Source of the DNA: a virus
Virus record (IMG/VR): IMGVR_UViG_3300037882_002550
Span: 1-38,278 of that record
Direction: 5' to 3' (one strand)
Length of the DNA stretch: 38,278 nt
The position numbers and the translations under genes were made by a program. Shown one piece after another: positions 2,101 through 30,942 of this stretch (the stretch's first letter is position 1; each line of letters starts with the position of its first letter). The notes beneath the pieces were generated by a model, which saw nothing but the letters and a program-made list of their open reading frames with translations, was not told the origin of the DNA and searched no databases.

Positions 2101-3450
2101 TCAAGTCAATTTCCTCCTCGGCACGAGATCCACGATCCGCTTTCTCGTTAGCCCATTTCCCGTATCGATGAGAGCTTGCGCCCCATCGTTTAAATAAATC
2201 AGCCGTTGCTCATTTCCGTTTCGAGTGCAGCCAGGCAACCGCGTCAACCGCACCGGCGAGAGCGCGCCAGGATCAGCACCCAGCTTCGACCACACACGCT
2301 TCGCCCCCAGCCGCCCACTCGTCGATCCCGCGCGCGGATTACCCTTCAGCAGCCCATCCATATCCGCCCACGTCTCCATCCCCACATGCACCAGCGCATG
2401 CCAGCTCTCACCACCGCTCGAATAAATCGCCCGTATCGAATTCGGAAAGATCGCAAGAAATTTCAACCACATACCCGGCACCTCACCCGCCCAGTCCGCA
2501 TATTGCCGAGCAAGCGCATCCCACTCCCCCTCGCGGCTCATCATCTCCGCCGCCCACTCCTTGCCCAGCTTCTTGAACTTCTCCTCAGTCGCCGGTCCGG
2601 GCTTCCAGCCCTCTCTGATCGCATCACGCAGCACCCCAGAACGCTTCTTCAGCGTCTTGCTCTCATCACACTCCAGCACCAGATAACGCCAGCTCGTCAC
2701 GCACTCTTTGGTACGCCGCGAATACGGCACCTCGGATTCATTCGCCCGCCTCGGATTCGCTTCCCAGCCCAACGTCACCGGATTCGATAAAAACCAAACC
2801 CCATCCTTCCCACCATTCACCGGCAGAGCCGATTTCACAGCCCTCACGCCCCGATCATCTCCCAATCGGAAACCACCCTTACCCACCTCCCACGCAAAAT
2901 CCCCCTGAGAGTAAAAATTCGTGAAAATCAAAGCCCTCTCACCCGGCTCGAAAACCGTATTCAAAAACTCCCCCGAAGACAGGCCCCGCACATCCACCGG
3001 CGATCGCTCCATGAACCACTCAGGCGTCACTTTCTCCACCCCAGCCACCGCCTTTTTCAGAGTCAAGTGATCATACAGTTCATTGACTGGATCAACCCTC
3101 GCCACCGGCTTCGTAGCCACACCGCTTTCATAATTTCCGCGCTTCTCAAACTCTTTCCATACCATCCCCAGCGCTTCACCACAAAGATTCACCGCCTCCT
3201 TCCACTCAATGCCGCGAACATGAGCCAAAAGCGCAATTCCATCACCACTCTGCATATTCCCGCCACCGCTACAGATCCAAGTCCCATCCCCATCCTTATC
3301 ATCAAAACGAAATCGATCTTTTCCCCCACAGCCTGGGCAACGCGTATGCCGACCGGTAAGGCATGAAGTATCAACCCCAAGCCCACCTAACAAACCAGCC
3401 CAGCCACCATTGGCCGCTGCCTTAACCTCTTTGAAATCATAGAATTTCAT
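2101..3450 (-). CDS. Primase-like protein with N-terminal zinc ribbon
   Basis: The 449-residue product begins with a primase-helicase-type zinc-binding domain: H36, then CPGC at 38-41, then GKDRFRFDD, then WIC ending at C60. This is the pattern of the N-terminal zinc ribbon of T7 gp4 and P4 alpha primases. The usual fourth ligand after C60 is a glycine run (SGGG), so the site is either three-Cys plus His36 or degenerate. The following region (about 75-330) lacks a clear TOPRIM signature, and the C-terminal third holds basic and aromatic patches that suggest nucleic-acid binding. The ATG overlaps the integrase stop (TAATG at 3450), so the genes are probably translationally coupled, and the helicase follows directly. 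Together they are the likely replication module. The priming active site cannot be pointed out, so primase is inferred from the zinc domain and neighbours. Confidence 0.65.
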   Translation of the reverse strand: MKFYDFKEVKAAANGGWAGLLGGLGVDTSCLTGRHTRCPGCGGKDRFRFDDKDGDGTWICSGGGNMQSGDGIALLAHVRGIEWKEAVNLCGEALGMVWKEFEKRGNYESGVATKPVARVDPVNELYDHLTLKKAVAGVEKVTPEWFMERSPVDVRGLSSGEFLNTVFEPGERALIFTNFYSQGDFAWEVGKGGFRLGDDRGVRAVKSALPVNGGKDGVWFLSNPVTLGWEANPRRANESEVPYSRRTKECVTSWRYLVLECDESKTLKKRSGVLRDAIREGWKPGPATEEKFKKLGKEWAAEMMSREGEWDALARQYADWAGEVPGMWLKFLAIFPNSIRAIYSSGGESWHALVHVGMETWADMDGLLKGNPRAGSTSGRLGAKRVWSKLGADPGALSPVRLTRLPGCTRNGNEQRLIYLNDGAQALIDTGNGLTRKRIVDLVPRRKLT

Positions 3451-4463
3451 TAAGCCGCACCCCTCCCGATCTGCACCACATTCCTAGGCATCTCCGGTTC
3501 CGACCTCGGCGATACATCCCAAGGACTCCCGATCCGGTCCGTATGCACCGGCAAGCAGTGAAGATAAATTTCAGTCGTCTCCATATTCGCATGACCCATC
3601 AGCCTTTGCAGTTCGCGAAGATTCCCACCGGCTAACAAATACATCGTCGCAAACCCATGCCGGAAAGCATGAGCCGTGACGCGCTTGTGAATTTTCGCAC
3701 GGCGGCAAGCAACCCGCAGCGGCTTCGCCAAACTCTTCCTATGCACATGGTGACGCCGCGTAATACCACTCTCCGGATCAACACTTTCAGCCGCAGCTGG
3801 AAAGACCCAAAAAAACGGAAACTCCTTCCCAAAGGAAGAGCACTTTCTCGCCACCGTAGCAGGCAGCGCAACACCTGGTCGGCCTTTCGCCCTATCCTCA
3901 TCCCACAGCCCCCTGCATCGCTCCATTCGCGCTTTGAGAGCATCAACCAACCTACGAGAAAGCACCGTGATCCTATCCTTATTACCCTTGCCACGCTTGA
4001 TCGTTACCGTAAGCCGCTCAAAATCAAAATCCCTCCATCTCAGCGCCACACACTCACCAACCCTCAAGCCAGATCCTAACATTAGCCCAGCCATCAGCCT
4101 CCACGGCTCCGTAAGATGACCCATGATCGCCTCACCTTCATTTTGAGTCACCCACACCGGGACATTCAGAGGCCGCTTAGGATTAACCCACGGCGGCAAC
4201 TCACCCACAGGCCTGCCCATCGCCGCATAAAACCCACTCTTGCCAGCCAACGCATTCAAAGCCTGCTTTTGGGTCGCCTCCGAGTGCTTGGAATACGAAG
4301 ACAGGAAATTACTGATTCTCTCCTCAACATCATTCGTTCCCGTGCTATCACGAAAAGCAAAAAACCGCTCTACCCAGCCATAATAACTCTCCCGAGTCAG
4401 AGGAGCCAGGCGTTCGCGTTGCATCCATTCATCATATCTTTCCAGTGCTTCTTTCGGTTTCAT
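3450..4463 (-). CDS. int: Tyrosine recombinase / phage integrase, full length
   Basis: This 337-residue XerC/D-like recombinase has all catalytic positions: Arg134 in GSGLRVGE, a basic beta-hairpin around KRGKGNKDR (157-164), His265-x-x-Arg268 in HAFRH, Gly290-His291 in LMGHANMETT and the nucleophile Tyr300. Residues 5-85 form a SAM-like core-binding domain. It should cut and rejoin phage and host attachment sites, or resolve genome multimers. It sits inside the early replication operon, directly upstream of and overlapping the primase gene, 11 kb from the tRNA-derived attachment-like site at 15.7 kb. That is unusual, since integrase genes normally border attP. A strong hairpin (4518-4546) precedes it and may limit its expression. 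It is intact, unlike the integrase fragment at 15326-15697. Confidence 0.92.
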   Translation of the reverse strand: MKPKEALERYDEWMQRERLAPLTRESYYGWVERFFAFRDSTGTNDVEERISNFLSSYSKHSEATQKQALNALAGKSGFYAAMGRPVGELPPWVNPKRPLNVPVWVTQNEGEAIMGHLTEPWRLMAGLMLGSGLRVGECVALRWRDFDFERLTVTIKRGKGNKDRITVLSRRLVDALKARMERCRGLWDEDRAKGRPGVALPATVARKCSSFGKEFPFFWVFPAAAESVDPESGITRRHHVHRKSLAKPLRVACRRAKIHKRVTAHAFRHGFATMYLLAGGNLRELQRLMGHANMETTEIYLHCLPVHTDRIGSPWDVSPRSEPEMPRNVVQIGRGAA

Positions 4464-4931: not shown

Positions 4932-5624
4932 CTAGTTTGGGTTGGCGTCCTTCGCGCCGTGCCTCACCTCTGCGTTCATCCGAGAATCAGACCACTGCGC
5001 GGAAGCTGGAACACCATCGTTTCCACCGTCCCGCGTTGGCATCACCCCGCCAATTCCACCATCGAACTCGAAGCGGAGAACTGTTTTTTCGTCGCCGCGA
5101 TGCATGAGCTTCGATCCCGGCAGAGACGCGATCAGTTTGAGATATTTCAGGTTCACCGTCACACCTCCACGATTTAGCGACACCAGAAACGCCGGGTCAT
5201 GGCTTCCAGTTCCATCGCAGTCCTCACATACCCTCGTTGGTGTATCCTTGCTGTCGGCGTCGATTCCAGTGCCATCGCATCGGCGGCACTCCTCGCCGCA
5301 ATGGTCACATTCTCCAGTGCCGTCGCATTTGCGGCATTCAGGGATTTTCCCTACTCCGTTGCAGCATTGGCATTTCACGGGGATCGCCTCGAAGGATTCC
5401 CAGCCAGGCGGATATTCCACCTCGCGCCAGTCTTCTGCGGGTGGCGGGATCACATCTGCCACACCATCGGGCACATTGTCGCGCCGAGCTTCCGCAATAG
5501 CCGGAACACGGATGATGATACGACCATCGCACGCATAGGTATAGTCCTCGATGCTGAATGGCGTTGATAGTTTGTATCGCGTTCCATCACTGGAACAGAA
5601 TTTTTGCAGGTCTTCTAGTTTCAT
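4932..5624 (-). CDS. Early protein with DnaJ-type zinc knuckles
   Basis: This 230-residue protein has a central cysteine-rich region (about 85-143) with repeated CxxCxGxG-like knuckles: CQCCNGVG, CRKCDGTG, CRRCDGTG and CEDCDGTG, plus CDHC. These resemble the zinc-binding centre of DnaJ, but no J domain is present. The flanking parts, with YTYACDGRIIIRVP at about 27-40 and a beta-rich C-terminal half, look like a small folded domain wrapped around the zinc insert. The ACDGR segment faintly recalls sliding-clamp-like phage proteins. Function is unknown; zinc-stabilised protein or nucleic-acid binding is the safest reading. It belongs to a run of four early genes that share this knuckle. Confidence 0.75.
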   Translation of the reverse strand: MKLEDLQKFCSSDGTRYKLSTPFSIEDYTYACDGRIIIRVPAIAEARRDNVPDGVADVIPPPAEDWREVEYPPGWESFEAIPVKCQCCNGVGKIPECRKCDGTGECDHCGEECRRCDGTGIDADSKDTPTRVCEDCDGTGSHDPAFLVSLNRGGVTVNLKYLKLIASLPGSKLMHRGDEKTVLRFEFDGGIGGVMPTRDGGNDGVPASAQWSDSRMNAEVRHGAKDANPN

Positions 5625-5946: not shown

Positions 5947-6300
5947 TCATGAAATTGTGATTGTCACTGATCGGTTCATTTCATCTCGGGATATGTCCAC
6001 GATCCTTCCATTCATTTCGTGAGCGATGCGGAAAATTTGAATTTCGTCATCTGCTAGATTCCCCTCGGAGAGTGGAAATGGTTTTTCACACAGCGCTATG
6101 CACTTCTCATCCAATTTTACGGCGGCCGGCAGTCCGTGCTTCTTGATGTGGACATTTAAGGATTCTAACGACTGCCTAATAGTCGCCAGTGGTTTATCTA
6201 CAGGAAAAACAAAGGCTCCAAACCCCTCCGCCGTGGCGGTGGCAGAGGGGGCTTCGGGCGCGGTCATCAGTGCCGCATCAGTTTGGGGAATTTCGCTCAT
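5947..6300 (-). CDS. Hypothetical early protein, translationally coupled
   Basis: A longer frame opens at 6354, but the ATG at 6300 overlaps the stop of the upstream gene as ATGA, so coupled initiation there is preferred and gives 117 residues (MSEIPQTDAA...). The first 30 residues are Ala/Thr/Pro-rich and probably disordered. The rest looks like a compact alpha/beta domain ending in a beta strand (NRSVTITIS). No motif is recognised. Confidence 0.6.
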   Translation of the reverse strand: MSEIPQTDAALMTAPEAPSATATAEGFGAFVFPVDKPLATIRQSLESLNVHIKKHGLPAAVKLDEKCIALCEKPFPLSEGNLADDEIQIFRIAHEMNGRIVDISRDEMNRSVTITIS

Positions 6301-7049
6301 TGAGGTGACTGGGTTGTGACGTTCAGCAGGCCTGTCCCATGACATAGTCCGCATGGTGTTTTCTCCGAGTAGGATGACGGCTGGACATAGTGAAAACCTT
6401 TACCATCGCACGAAGGGCATTTGCCTTGCTGGTTCTCCACGGAATCACCGCTAGTAAGAGCCTCAAGATGCCCCTGCATAAATGGATTTTCCGGATCGGA
6501 TTTCAACCCTTCCTTCATCGCTTCGATCATCGCGTTATCAAGATCCTGCGATTTATCCTCCCACGTCCCAGCGCATCTTTTGCACTCAGCAATGCTTTGA
6601 TTCATCCCATACGGTTTTGAAAACTCATGAAACCCGCAGTGAGGACATGACGCAGCAACCTCATTCTCCGCATTCATTTTTCCTCCACAATGACACGGCC
6701 CATCGAACTTCTCACCATGGCTTTGATCCTCGACTACCCCGGTATTGAGACAATCAGGACAATGATTATCAGCATGCTTTAATTCCACCCCCACAGATTC
6801 ACCTACCTTTGAAATTACATCATAGAGATTCTGACTGGCTCTAATCACAGTCACTTCTTCATCTTGCCCAAATATAGATCCAAGGGCCTGCAAAGCCGAT
6901 GTGTCTCGACTAACTATCAATTTCCCCGCAACCCCCTTGAGGCTTGAAAAACCTTCCCATTCTGACTCGACGCTAAAAACGCCTAACAACTTTCCGCCTG
7001 CCCACGCCTCATAAATATCTTTACGCTTCAATGTGATTTTATTGCTCAT
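6297..7049 (-). CDS. Early zinc-ribbon protein with DnaJ-type knuckles
   Basis: This 250-residue protein has an N-terminal alpha/beta part (1-90, no motif recognised) followed by several cysteine pairs: CPDCLNTG, CHCGG, CPHCGF, CKRCAGTW, and near the C-terminus CPSCDGKG and CGLCHGTG. The last two are typical CxxCxGxG knuckles, and the first four look like two zinc ribbons of the restriction-alleviation Lar type (CPHCG). That likeness is only suggestive. The gene is coupled by ATGA to the next one downstream. Its leader (AACTGATAGAAAATATG) has no Shine-Dalgarno sequence. Confidence 0.7.
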   Translation of the reverse strand: MSNKITLKRKDIYEAWAGGKLLGVFSVESEWEGFSSLKGVAGKLIVSRDTSALQALGSIFGQDEEVTVIRASQNLYDVISKVGESVGVELKHADNHCPDCLNTGVVEDQSHGEKFDGPCHCGGKMNAENEVAASCPHCGFHEFSKPYGMNQSIAECKRCAGTWEDKSQDLDNAMIEAMKEGLKSDPENPFMQGHLEALTSGDSVENQQGKCPSCDGKGFHYVQPSSYSEKTPCGLCHGTGLLNVTTQSPQ

Positions 7050-7070: not shown

Positions 7071-7724
7071 TTATGATCCGGCGTTCGATGCGCCGCTCGC
7101 CCCCGTGCCGAAGCAATCTGGACAGTGAGAAAATTCCATAGTGATGGCATGCCTCAGCTCCCCATATCCTCGACAACGGCGGCACCCTGGACTTTTTGGG
7201 TTAGATTTGATGAGAGCCGTCCCGGACTCGAACCGAGAAGGATATAGTTCGCTATCGCTATGGCCCTCCGACGTATCGCAGCTATTATCTCCGCGCTTAC
7301 CCGCCTGCGTTTGCCCATTTCGCCAACGGCTCTCATCAAATCTAAGCTCGCTCTTCGGCACTTCAAACCACCCCTGCTTGCCCTTCCAAGGTACAAACGG
7401 CAGCGGCTTAGCCTTCTTCAGCACCCATCCCCAAGGTCCGAAAAACCATGGCGATAGATCCACATCCACACAGTCATCAATCTCCACCTGTCCCACGATC
7501 CCACCGCGCTCAAGCTCATCGAAAGCAGGCAAAGCGATTCCATTCTCATCCGCCATCGCCCACGCCGTAGCGTAATCATCCACGGTCATCCGCGCCGATG
7601 CATGAATCAAAACCCGCTCGCGCTTCCAAGTCCGCAGAGACCGGTTTTCGATGTCCTTGTGGCCGTTCACAATCAACCAAGCCCAAGGCTGCCGAACTGA
7701 TATCGCTTTCATCGTTTCGCTCAT
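7071..7724 (-). CDS. ASCH-domain protein with in-frame tRNA-like insert and C-terminal zinc knuckle
   Basis: Residues 5-120 are an ASCH domain: the opening MKAISVRQPWAWLIVNG, the G-K-x-x-E-N-R motif (HKDIENRS) and the closing KGKQGWFEV. ASCH proteins bind RNA or modified nucleosides, and some hydrolyse N4-acetylcytidine. The ASCH core seems complete by about residue 125. The frame then runs without a stop through a 145-bp element (7201-7345) that has a perfect 20-bp inverted repeat and tRNA-like D and T arms. It ends in a knuckle domain, CRRCRGYG and CPDCFGTG. The segment translated from the tRNA-like element is low in hydrophobic residues and probably a linker, or the element may split the transcript. 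ATG 7724 or the ATG four codons later can start it; the second matches the usual ASCH N-terminus. Confidence 0.8.
   Translation of the reverse strand: MSETMKAISVRQPWAWLIVNGHKDIENRSLRTWKRERVLIHASARMTVDDYATAWAMADENGIALPAFDELERGGIVGQVEIDDCVDVDLSPWFFGPWGWVLKKAKPLPFVPWKGKQGWFEVPKSELRFDESRWRNGQTQAGKRGDNSCDTSEGHSDSELYPSRFESGTALIKSNPKSPGCRRCRGYGELRHAITMEFSHCPDCFGTGASGASNAGS
7201..7345 (-). other. tRNA-Leu-like element bounded by a perfect 20-bp inverted repeat, inside a coding frame
   Basis: The outer arms (7201-7220 and 7326-7345) are perfect complements: TTAGATTTGATGAGAGCCGT and its reverse complement. Read on the minus strand, the inner seven bases act as a tRNA acceptor stem, GAGCCGT (7332-7326) with ACGGCTC (7220-7214). 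Directly beside the 3' strand lies a T arm, CTCGG-TTCGAGT-CCGGG (7237-7221), with one G-U pair. Two bases (TG) after the 5' strand comes a D arm, GCG-AAATGGGCAAA-CGC (7323-7307), very like bacterial tRNA-Leu. The middle (about 70 bases) is too long for tRNA-Leu and shows no canonical anticodon arm. The best hairpin there is CGCGG-(9)-CTGCG at 7295-7277. The element lies in the ASCH gene on the same strand and has no stop in that frame. It may be a tRNA relic, a tRNA-like processing signal or a small mobile element. Confidence 0.7.
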
Positions 7725-7738
7725 AAAAATCTTTCGTT

Positions 7739-8641
7739 TTAACCCTTTTCCGCAGGCACCAACATTCCGGCATCCGCCAAATCAAAAATTTCCTTGTTAC
7801 CCGATCGCGAAGCCACTGCCCGAATCGCATGCAGATAATCAAACCGCGTTGGATCTTCACCCAAGACCACCTTGAACCCCTTTATTTCATCCACCGTGAC
7901 CACAGGCGACTGACCATGCTCGATCGTAGTCCCATCACGCATCAGATAGCGCAGTGCACTTACATTCCCTTTCTCATCAAAAAACTTGGTTACTGAAACC
8001 GGAGATTTTAACCGCTCCACATTGCATGAAGGACAAGGCGTGTTCATCACATCATCATCCTCAGCCGCACCAGGAATCATCGAAAGCCCGGCACACACTT
8101 TACAAGCCTCAAACTTAAACTCGACAGGGCAACGCTCTAACAAACTCAGCACCCCTGCCACCTCATCAAAACGATGCATCGCTTCGTCGATCACTACGCA
8201 AGCAGCATTCTGAACCATCACAGCCGCCTGCACCGCCCATTCAGAAATTTTCCTGTAATCACTTCCCAAATTTCTCAGCCGCTCCTCCAACTCGCGCATT
8301 TCCTTTTGATGATACTCCAGAGACACCGAAACCGTAGCTGCCTCCATTTCCACGATATCCTTCTTCGGCTCCTCCAATTCCGCTAAAACCTCAGTCTCTT
8401 CGAACGCCAAATTATCCGGATTGCTGACAGGATAAATCCTCTCCCAAATCTCCCGAGTAACCGGCTGAAGCTCGTAAGACTCGCACCTGAATAGATCCCC
8501 ACCCATGATATCGCCGAACTCATCAAAAGGCTCCACAAGCAAACAAGCCCCATCAATCGGATCACAAGTGATCAAACTAACAATCTGATTCCTGCCATGA
8601 TGATAATATCTCTCCCTCAACTTAGTTTCGCTCAATTTCAT
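7739..8641 (-). CDS. Hypothetical early protein with coiled coil and zinc motif
   Basis: From the ATG at 8641 the product is 300 residues. A GTG at 8668 would add nine residues that are encoded by the TGATCAC repeat, so the ATG is preferred. The N-terminal 75 residues look like a small beta-rich domain. Residues about 95-140 are a charged coiled coil with EYHQKEMRELEERLRNL, and a CxxC pair plus CPSC (CKVCAGLS...TPCPSCNVE) follow near 190-215. A C-terminal alpha/beta part has no recognised motif. It continues the set of zinc-knuckle early proteins, though its knuckle is degenerate. Confidence 0.65.
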   Translation of the reverse strand: MKLSETKLRERYYHHGRNQIVSLITCDPIDGACLLVEPFDEFGDIMGGDLFRCESYELQPVTREIWERIYPVSNPDNLAFEETEVLAELEEPKKDIVEMEAATVSVSLEYHQKEMRELEERLRNLGSDYRKISEWAVQAAVMVQNAACVVIDEAMHRFDEVAGVLSLLERCPVEFKFEACKVCAGLSMIPGAAEDDDVMNTPCPSCNVERLKSPVSVTKFFDEKGNVSALRYLMRDGTTIEHGQSPVVTVDEIKGFKVVLGEDPTRFDYLHAIRAVASRSGNKEIFDLADAGMLVPAEKG

Positions 8642-8661
8642 AACCTTAATTTCTTCTTCAC

Positions 8662-8683
8662 TGATCACTGATCACTCGGCACT
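8662..8683. repeat. 22-bp intergenic direct repeat (TGATCAC type), copy 1
   Basis: The sequence here is identical to 10768-10789. It consists of overlapping TGATCAC units followed by TCGGCACT, and here a further TGATCACT follows. Both copies sit just after a stop codon and upstream of the next start in the early operon. It may be an operator, an mRNA processing site or a dispersed repeat. Confidence 0.7.
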
Positions 8684-10737: not shown

Positions 10738-10767
10738 ATTTCTGTTAGTTAAATTCTTCTCTTTCCT

Positions 10768-10789
10768 GATCACTGATCACTCGGCACTA
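10768..10789. repeat. 22-bp intergenic direct repeat (TGATCAC type), copy 2
   Basis: This is the second exact copy of the repeat at 8662-8683. It overlaps the stop codon of the 10787-11062 gene and precedes the ATG at 10737, so its gene-boundary position matches that of copy 1. Confidence 0.7.
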
Positions 10790-30498: not shown

Positions 30499-30942
30499 TT
30501 ACTTTTTACCTTTTTTCGTGTCGGTGGATTTACCATCGGCAGCGGCTTGATCGGCAGCGGCTTGATCGGCAGCGGCTTGATCGGCAGCGGCTTGATCGGC
30601 AGCGGCTTGATCGGCAGCGGCTTGATCGGCAGCGGCGTCGCCATCTTCAGATTGCTCTGGTGAGGGAATCACTGGGATGGGTGGAGCAAGATCGCGATTT
30701 TTACCAGCATGAATCTCGACGCCAGCGAGGACTTCGGAAAGGTCTTTGCCGTTTTTCGCAGCGGTGAAGGTTTTACTTTTCACGAGTCCACGCATGGAGC
30801 GCCATACCTGCACTCCAACGACGTCTTTAGGGCGGTTTTCGAGGACTGCTTTGAAGATCGCGAGGTGATCCGAATAAAGAGAACCCTCGTGGATGAGCTT
30901 GCGTTCGCCGCTGGCGAGGATGATGAAGGTGAGATTTTCCAT
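30499..30942 (-). CDS. Late protein with AAADQ pentapeptide repeats
   Basis: This 147-residue protein has a small alpha/beta N-terminal domain (1-85). A tail of about seven Ala-Ala-Ala-Asp-Gln repeats (about 102-136), encoded by 15-bp tandem repeats, leads to a Lys-rich end (KSTDTKKGKK). The N-terminal domain may be a structural or connector protein. The repeats form a probably flexible or helical, acidic linker. It is the first gene after the capsid terminator and has CTAACA 14 bases before its ATG. Confidence 0.65.
   Translation of the reverse strand: MENLTFIILASGERKLIHEGSLYSDHLAIFKAVLENRPKDVVGVQVWRSMRGLVKSKTFTAAKNGKDLSEVLAGVEIHAGKNRDLAPPIPVIPSPEQSEDGDAAADQAAADQAAADQAAADQAAADQAAADQAAADGKSTDTKKGKK
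30537..30626 (-). repeat. 15-bp tandem repeat, six full units plus a partial one
   Basis: The unit CGGCAGCGGCTTGAT (plus strand) repeats without change from 30537 to 30626, and a partial copy follows. It encodes AAADQ in the gene above. Uniform copies suggest recent slippage and possible copy-number variation. There is no spacer, so it is not a CRISPR. Confidence 0.9.

Follow-up and report, generated by a model that had tools for sequence, protein, structure and literature searches.

A tRNA-Leu-like element with a long acceptor helix inside a phage ASCH–zinc gene, and its place in a class of anticodon-less tRNA-Leu-like RNAs

The window analysed here (38,278 nucleotides, positions 1–38,278 of IMG/VR virus record IMGVR_UViG_3300037882_002550) carries, within a gene for an ASCH–zinc protein, an element at 7345–7201 on the minus strand that is built like a tRNA-Leu without an anticodon arm. 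The element is not unique: the same architecture occurs at 120 or more IMG/VR loci. A sequence-only reading had offered three explanations: a tRNA relic or mobile tRNA-like cassette, a tRNA mimic that lets processing enzymes cut the mRNA, and a decoy RNA bound by the ASCH domain. Of these, the tRNA mimic fits best, with cleavage a prediction from the sequence. With moderate confidence, we regard the element as a long-acceptor member of the anticodon-less class that would be processed as a tRNA mimic in the ASCH–zinc mRNA. The features are as follows.

7071–7724, minus strand: ORF of 217 amino acids (ASCH, linker and CxxCxGxG zinc tail) that reads through the element, with codons 126–173 lying within it
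7333–7345, minus strand: TTAGATTTGATGA, the 13-nt 5′ extension of the acceptor, including the subclass leader TTTGATGR
7326–7332, minus strand: 5′ acceptor strand GAGCCGT, 7 bp with 7220–7214 (from the sequence, the register being set by U8-G9 and the D arm)
7307–7323, minus strand: D arm GCG-AAATGGGCAAA-CGC, with a 3-bp stem and an 11-nt Leu-type loop containing A14, A15, G18, G19 and A20a
7238–7306, minus strand: 69-nt middle replacing the anticodon and variable arms, with U48 at its end
7221–7237, minus strand: T arm CTCGG-TTCGAGT-CCGGG, 5 bp, abutting the acceptor
7214–7220, minus strand: 3′ acceptor strand ACGGCTC
7201–7213, minus strand: 3′ extension TCATCAAATCTAA, wholly paired to 7333–7345, with U as discriminator 73 (7213)

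Read along the minus strand from 7345, the element consists of a 13-nt paired extension, a 7-nt acceptor strand, UG, the D arm, the 69-nt middle, the T arm, the second 7-nt acceptor strand and the second 13-nt extension. The 7-bp acceptor, U8-G9, the D arm with its Leu-type loop and the T arm that abuts the acceptor all stand in register, which bears out the tRNA-Leu-like geometry first proposed. The two arms of the long helix (7201–7220 and 7326–7345; 20 nt each, 100% complementary, spacing 105 nt) form the sole perfect inverted repeat of more than 13 bp in the 38 kb window for spacers of up to 300 nt, and the chance expectation for a 20-bp perfect repeat in the window is 1.1e-5, in agreement with the earlier judgement that it did not arise by chance. 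The minus strand of the segment folds with an energy of −57 kcal/mol (z = −4.3). As had been noticed, the middle is overlong (about 35 nt more than the usual anticodon and variable regions together), and a constrained fold contains no anticodon stem with 5 bp, a 7-nt loop and a Leu anticodon. The nested fold of the 69-nt middle is no better than that of shuffles (z +0.9), and no sequence homologue of it was found.

Comparison with bacterial tRNA-Leu (type II; Rfam RF00005) shows that the 7-bp acceptor, U8, 3-bp D stem with 11-nt Leu loop, T arm, A15-U48 pair and D/T contacts are shared, whereas the element lacks the anticodon arm, has a longer middle, an acceptor of 20 bp and U rather than A at position 73, and is not called by the standard tools. 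ARAGORN in default mode called neither a tRNA nor a tmRNA at the element, and an Rfam scan of the window gave no match to it, including to the tRNA model RF00005. With introns allowed, ARAGORN forced an implausible tRNA-Arg onto the element. In blastn searches of phage records the two halves aligned independently, query positions 24–62 to an annotated tRNA-Leu and positions 128–151 to tRNA-Leu, tRNA-Tyr and tRNA-Met genes; these alignments are only suggestive because their E-values of 2–7 are nonsignificant. A tmRNA likewise has a tRNA-like domain without an anticodon arm and a long middle between its D and T regions; the element differs in that its D stem is intact and Leu-like and no tag frame was identified, and ARAGORN -m and Rfam gave no tmRNA for it.

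The ORF at 7724–7071 encodes an ASCH protein (Pfam PF04266; phrog_3193) and, as first described, reads straight through the element on the same strand. The element begins at codon 126, between the ASCH domain and a CxxCxGxG zinc tail of the DnaJ/Q type that follows in the same frame. Nearly all of 80 viral ASCH homologues end at about residue 118–149 in their own numbering (most at 123–133), so that the element starts where the conserved ASCH protein stops; a position inside the conserved domain is thereby ruled out. The sequence-only reading had proposed that homologues encoding the same residues with unpaired arms would mark the repeat as a coding coincidence. These residues are wholly absent from the homologues, so that conservation of the protein does not account for the repeat.

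As protein, the element can be read as a hydrophilic linker of about 47–48 residues, which matches no family; phrog_8897 matches residues 119–210, with nearly all of the score coming from the zinc tail. Codon use within the element resembles that of genes (p = 0.014 relative to stop-free shuffles), the ASCH frame is open across the element in only 3 of 96 class sequences, and 78 of 95 class sequences have a D-loop stop at the place where the window reads GGG CAA. On these grounds both the RNA reading and the protein reading seem to be maintained. A possible peptide read from the ATG of the leader was rejected, its GEIGRR similarity being imposed by the D arm alone. The association with ASCH itself is probably incidental, since none of 50 ASCH-phage records carries an element of this kind and, among about 200 class loci, a single one has an ASCH-like match nearby; on the same counts, a decoy RNA bound by the ASCH domain has no support.

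Two other types of feature were noted in the window. Neighbouring phage proteins at 4932–5624, 6297–7049, 7071–7205 and 7739–8668 carry CxxC or CxxCxGxG zinc motifs of the DnaJ or Q-antiterminator type. Further repeats comprise a 29-nt repeat at 8655–8683 and 10760–10788 (93% identical; minus strand AGTGCCGAGTGATCAGTGATCAG), which spans the GTG starts of two genes and is operator- or leader-like (TGATCAGTGATCA), and a 15-bp tandem repeat at 30520–30654 coding AADQA units in ORF 30499–30942.

Relatives of the element were sought by scanning IMG/VR for a Leu D arm, a spacer and a T loop (TGGCGNAATNGGNANACGC + 55–85 nt + GGTTCGANTCC), which returned at least 120 loci. The D loop was part of this pattern and is hence no evidence for a class; the acceptor and the outer T stem were absent from it, and among the matches listed 7/7 acceptor pairs are formed in 99/120 and 5/5 T-stem pairs in 112/120. 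U48 and A73, neither of which was searched for, occur in 94 and 66, respectively, of the 95 distinct members listed, and U48 is also present in the window. The class is defined by a Leu D arm, 50–85 nt and a T loop, with an acceptor of 6–7/7 pairs, a T stem of at least 4/5 pairs and U48, and the window element has all of these. Viral members lie mostly between co-oriented genes (both neighbours co-oriented in 67/104), and because the downstream genes, as judged by eye, are diverse, no single cis-regulated gene emerges. In one cluster of four members (L213, L214, L218 and L244), the middle can be divided by eye into a stem where the anticodon arm would be, a GYCA-loop hairpin and a TGRC-loop hairpin; the two loops could pair, with the YR pair alternating between C-G and U-A in these four sequences.

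The same pattern matched 84 stretches in 85k bacterial genomes, a mixed set of assembly chimeras, tandem tRNAs, tRNAs with lengthened anticodon arms and clear class members, among them L336 in Phocaeicola vulgatus ATCC 8482. Apart from weak RF00005 matches to some members, no Rfam family covers the class. ARAGORN called no tmRNA on any member, Rfam found none on the loci scanned, and blastn of GenBank phages with L226-, L289- and L213-type elements gave no match.

Several further features were noted at individual loci. Further tRNA genes with 3–4-nt anticodon loops (ARAGORN ‘tRNA-???’) lie next to the class element in L336 (1150–3321) and also in L213 and L218, and loss of decoding may extend to other tRNA types; two tRNA genes beside a class element are preceded by a GCCCGGAAGYGTCCGGGC hairpin. 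In unrelated contigs (L203, L215, L219, L237, L262 and L296), probably of Bacteroidota phages, a GCCCG-GAAAGA-CGGGC-type hairpin and then AAAY immediately precede the acceptor. At L250 (1522–1951), a group I intron holds a class element in one of its peripheral loops. Bacterial tRNA-Leu-like genes at L357, L399, L401 and L331 have an anticodon stem that is apparently about 10–20 bp longer.

Outward extension of the acceptor sets apart a subclass that is rarer than the class at large and includes the window element. Most class members stop at 7–8 bp; seven distinct elements reach 17–22 bp, namely the window element, L334 (Pararobbsia alpina, also present as provirus L410), L408, L289, L249, L409 and L320. 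The subclass is defined by an acceptor helix of at least 16 bp with a (T)TTGATGR leader; the leader before the acceptor is TTTGATGR in four members and CCTGATGG in L249 and L409, and L320 has neither. An ungapped alignment of the seven whole structures has 94.9% of cells paired against 33–44% when slid, and the 13-bp extension alone 89% against 35–54%, scores that are biased by the choice of the window element, L334, L289, L249 and L320 partly for pairing (L408 and L409 were found through sequence patterns). Changes on both sides are seen in 20/28 pairs of the whole structure, and 10/13 pairs of the extension covary. Subclass sequences vary and occupy one site per virus record, mostly intergenic; overlap with a gene seems peculiar to this phage, because the other subclass members seem intergenic. 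A search of genomes around that of L334 (398 from one family, 398 from one phylum) recovered essentially nothing besides L334 itself, the rest being ordinary-looking tRNA-Leu leaders.

The view of the element as a tRNA mimic is supported by its anatomy, its class membership, the covariation of the long acceptor and its dual readability as RNA and protein. In the proposed mechanism, the segment of the ASCH mRNA would fold as a tRNA mimic that host tRNA-processing enzymes of the RNase P type would cut near 7333/7332 and 7213, the RNase P cut being predicted between 7333 and 7332. After cleavage, a stable RNA of about 120 nt would be freed and the ASCH and zinc parts would be separated; uncut mRNA would yield an ASCH–zinc fusion protein. 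The ORF translation has no separate start codon for the zinc tail between the element and the first CxxC. A point against this mechanism is that both the 5′ leader and the 3′ trailer are fully paired, which could hinder RNase P. The middle without a special fold or sequence homologue, and an overlap with a gene that the other subclass members do not seem to share, also count against it.

The element might instead be a decayed tRNA-Leu gene, its middle expanded or scrambled, that became fused into the ASCH gene through stop-codon loss. The missing anticodon, the middle without a special fold, a discriminator other than A and the odd position across a gene speak for such a relic. This origin fits poorly with the remaining arms, which are all perfect, with the elbow contacts, which are intact down to U48, and with the covariation of the long acceptor across seven independent elements in other phages and this one; since 20/20 pairs are kept, a relic is unlikely.

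It is also rather unlikely that the window RNA is a charged tRNA-Leu mimic, which host LeuRS would leucylate and which would act as a leucyl donor outside decoding or as a LeuRS sponge. E. coli LeuRS requires A73, A15-U48, G18G19, A20a and the D/T loop contacts and does not require the anticodon; E. coli tRNA-Leu can be charged even when it lacks both the anticodon arm and the variable arm, and A73C abolished charging of truncated tRNA-Leu (reviewed in PMC9976931). The class retains this LeuRS set (A15-U48, G18G19, A20a, the T-loop contacts and, among the members listed, A73 in about two-thirds), and leucylation of its A73 members, such as L213 and L226, is for this reason a sharp, testable idea. 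These minimal constructs resemble the class in lacking an anticodon arm and in having elbow and identity elements; they are laboratory-made, whereas the class is natural and phage-borne and its window member lacks A73. Within the subclass, A73 is present in only 1/7 members, against 65/92 in the rest (p = 0.005), and position 73 onward is base-paired. The window copy, with its paired U73, is thus probably not charged, and use of the tRNA shape alone is favoured for it. Charging is plausible for the class and unlikely for the window copy. More tentatively, we suggest that anticodon-less tRNA-Leu RNAs widespread in phages, keeping exactly the LeuRS set, may be charged with leucine for a non-decoding use, and that the long-acceptor subclass would have abandoned charging and rely solely on the tRNA shape, in the window inside a protein-coding gene.

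An improbable alternative is a translational or transcript-stability element, in which a rigid stem would slow ribosomes as they pass from the ASCH to the zinc domain, or would shield the mRNA, and the tRNA shape would be incidental. The strong fold and its location exactly at the domain junction agree with such a role, which leaves U48, the Leu D loop and the T loop unexplained; relatives lie outside genes. A mobile tRNA-like cassette or miniature transposon inserted in the gene is very improbable. Terminal inverted repeats and an in-frame position are present, but this virus contains no second copy, no target-site duplication is seen by eye, the length of 145 is 48 × 3 + 1, and the subclass keeps to a single, mostly intergenic, place per virus record. 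With regard to a possible role as a phage attP in a tRNA gene, which would call for identity with a host tRNA 3′ end next to the integrase, an integrase is encoded at 3450–4463, 2.7 kb from the element, and the exact 5′-half pattern had no match in the contigs of 85k bacterial genomes. The window-specific D-loop pattern had no match in IMG/VR, and a search through the neighbouring 309-aa protein found no relatives of the phage. Pure coding coincidence, in which the linker merely happens to be encoded by complementary arms, agrees with the gene-like codon use and can practically be dismissed, given the expectation for the repeat alone (1e-5), the absence of the residues from ASCH homologues and the recurrence of the architecture in unrelated phages, which already refutes it.

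Some phage tRNAs evade host tRNA nucleases through changes in their anticodon loops (PMC10264068); they share with the present class a change to the anticodon region of a phage-encoded tRNA gene, but they still decode, whereas the class has no anticodon at all. The class is missing from current phage annotation because no Rfam family exists for it and ARAGORN, run with default settings, would overlook it. The literature searched, in which coverage of subscription papers and preprints was thin, gave no account of these RNAs, so an earlier description is possible. Phage tRNA genes are seen as decoding aids or as substitutes for tRNAs destroyed by host defences. A common, conserved set that is unable to decode would need another role, which might be that of a leucyl donor, a sponge for LeuRS or elongation factor, a nuclease decoy or an mRNA-processing signal.
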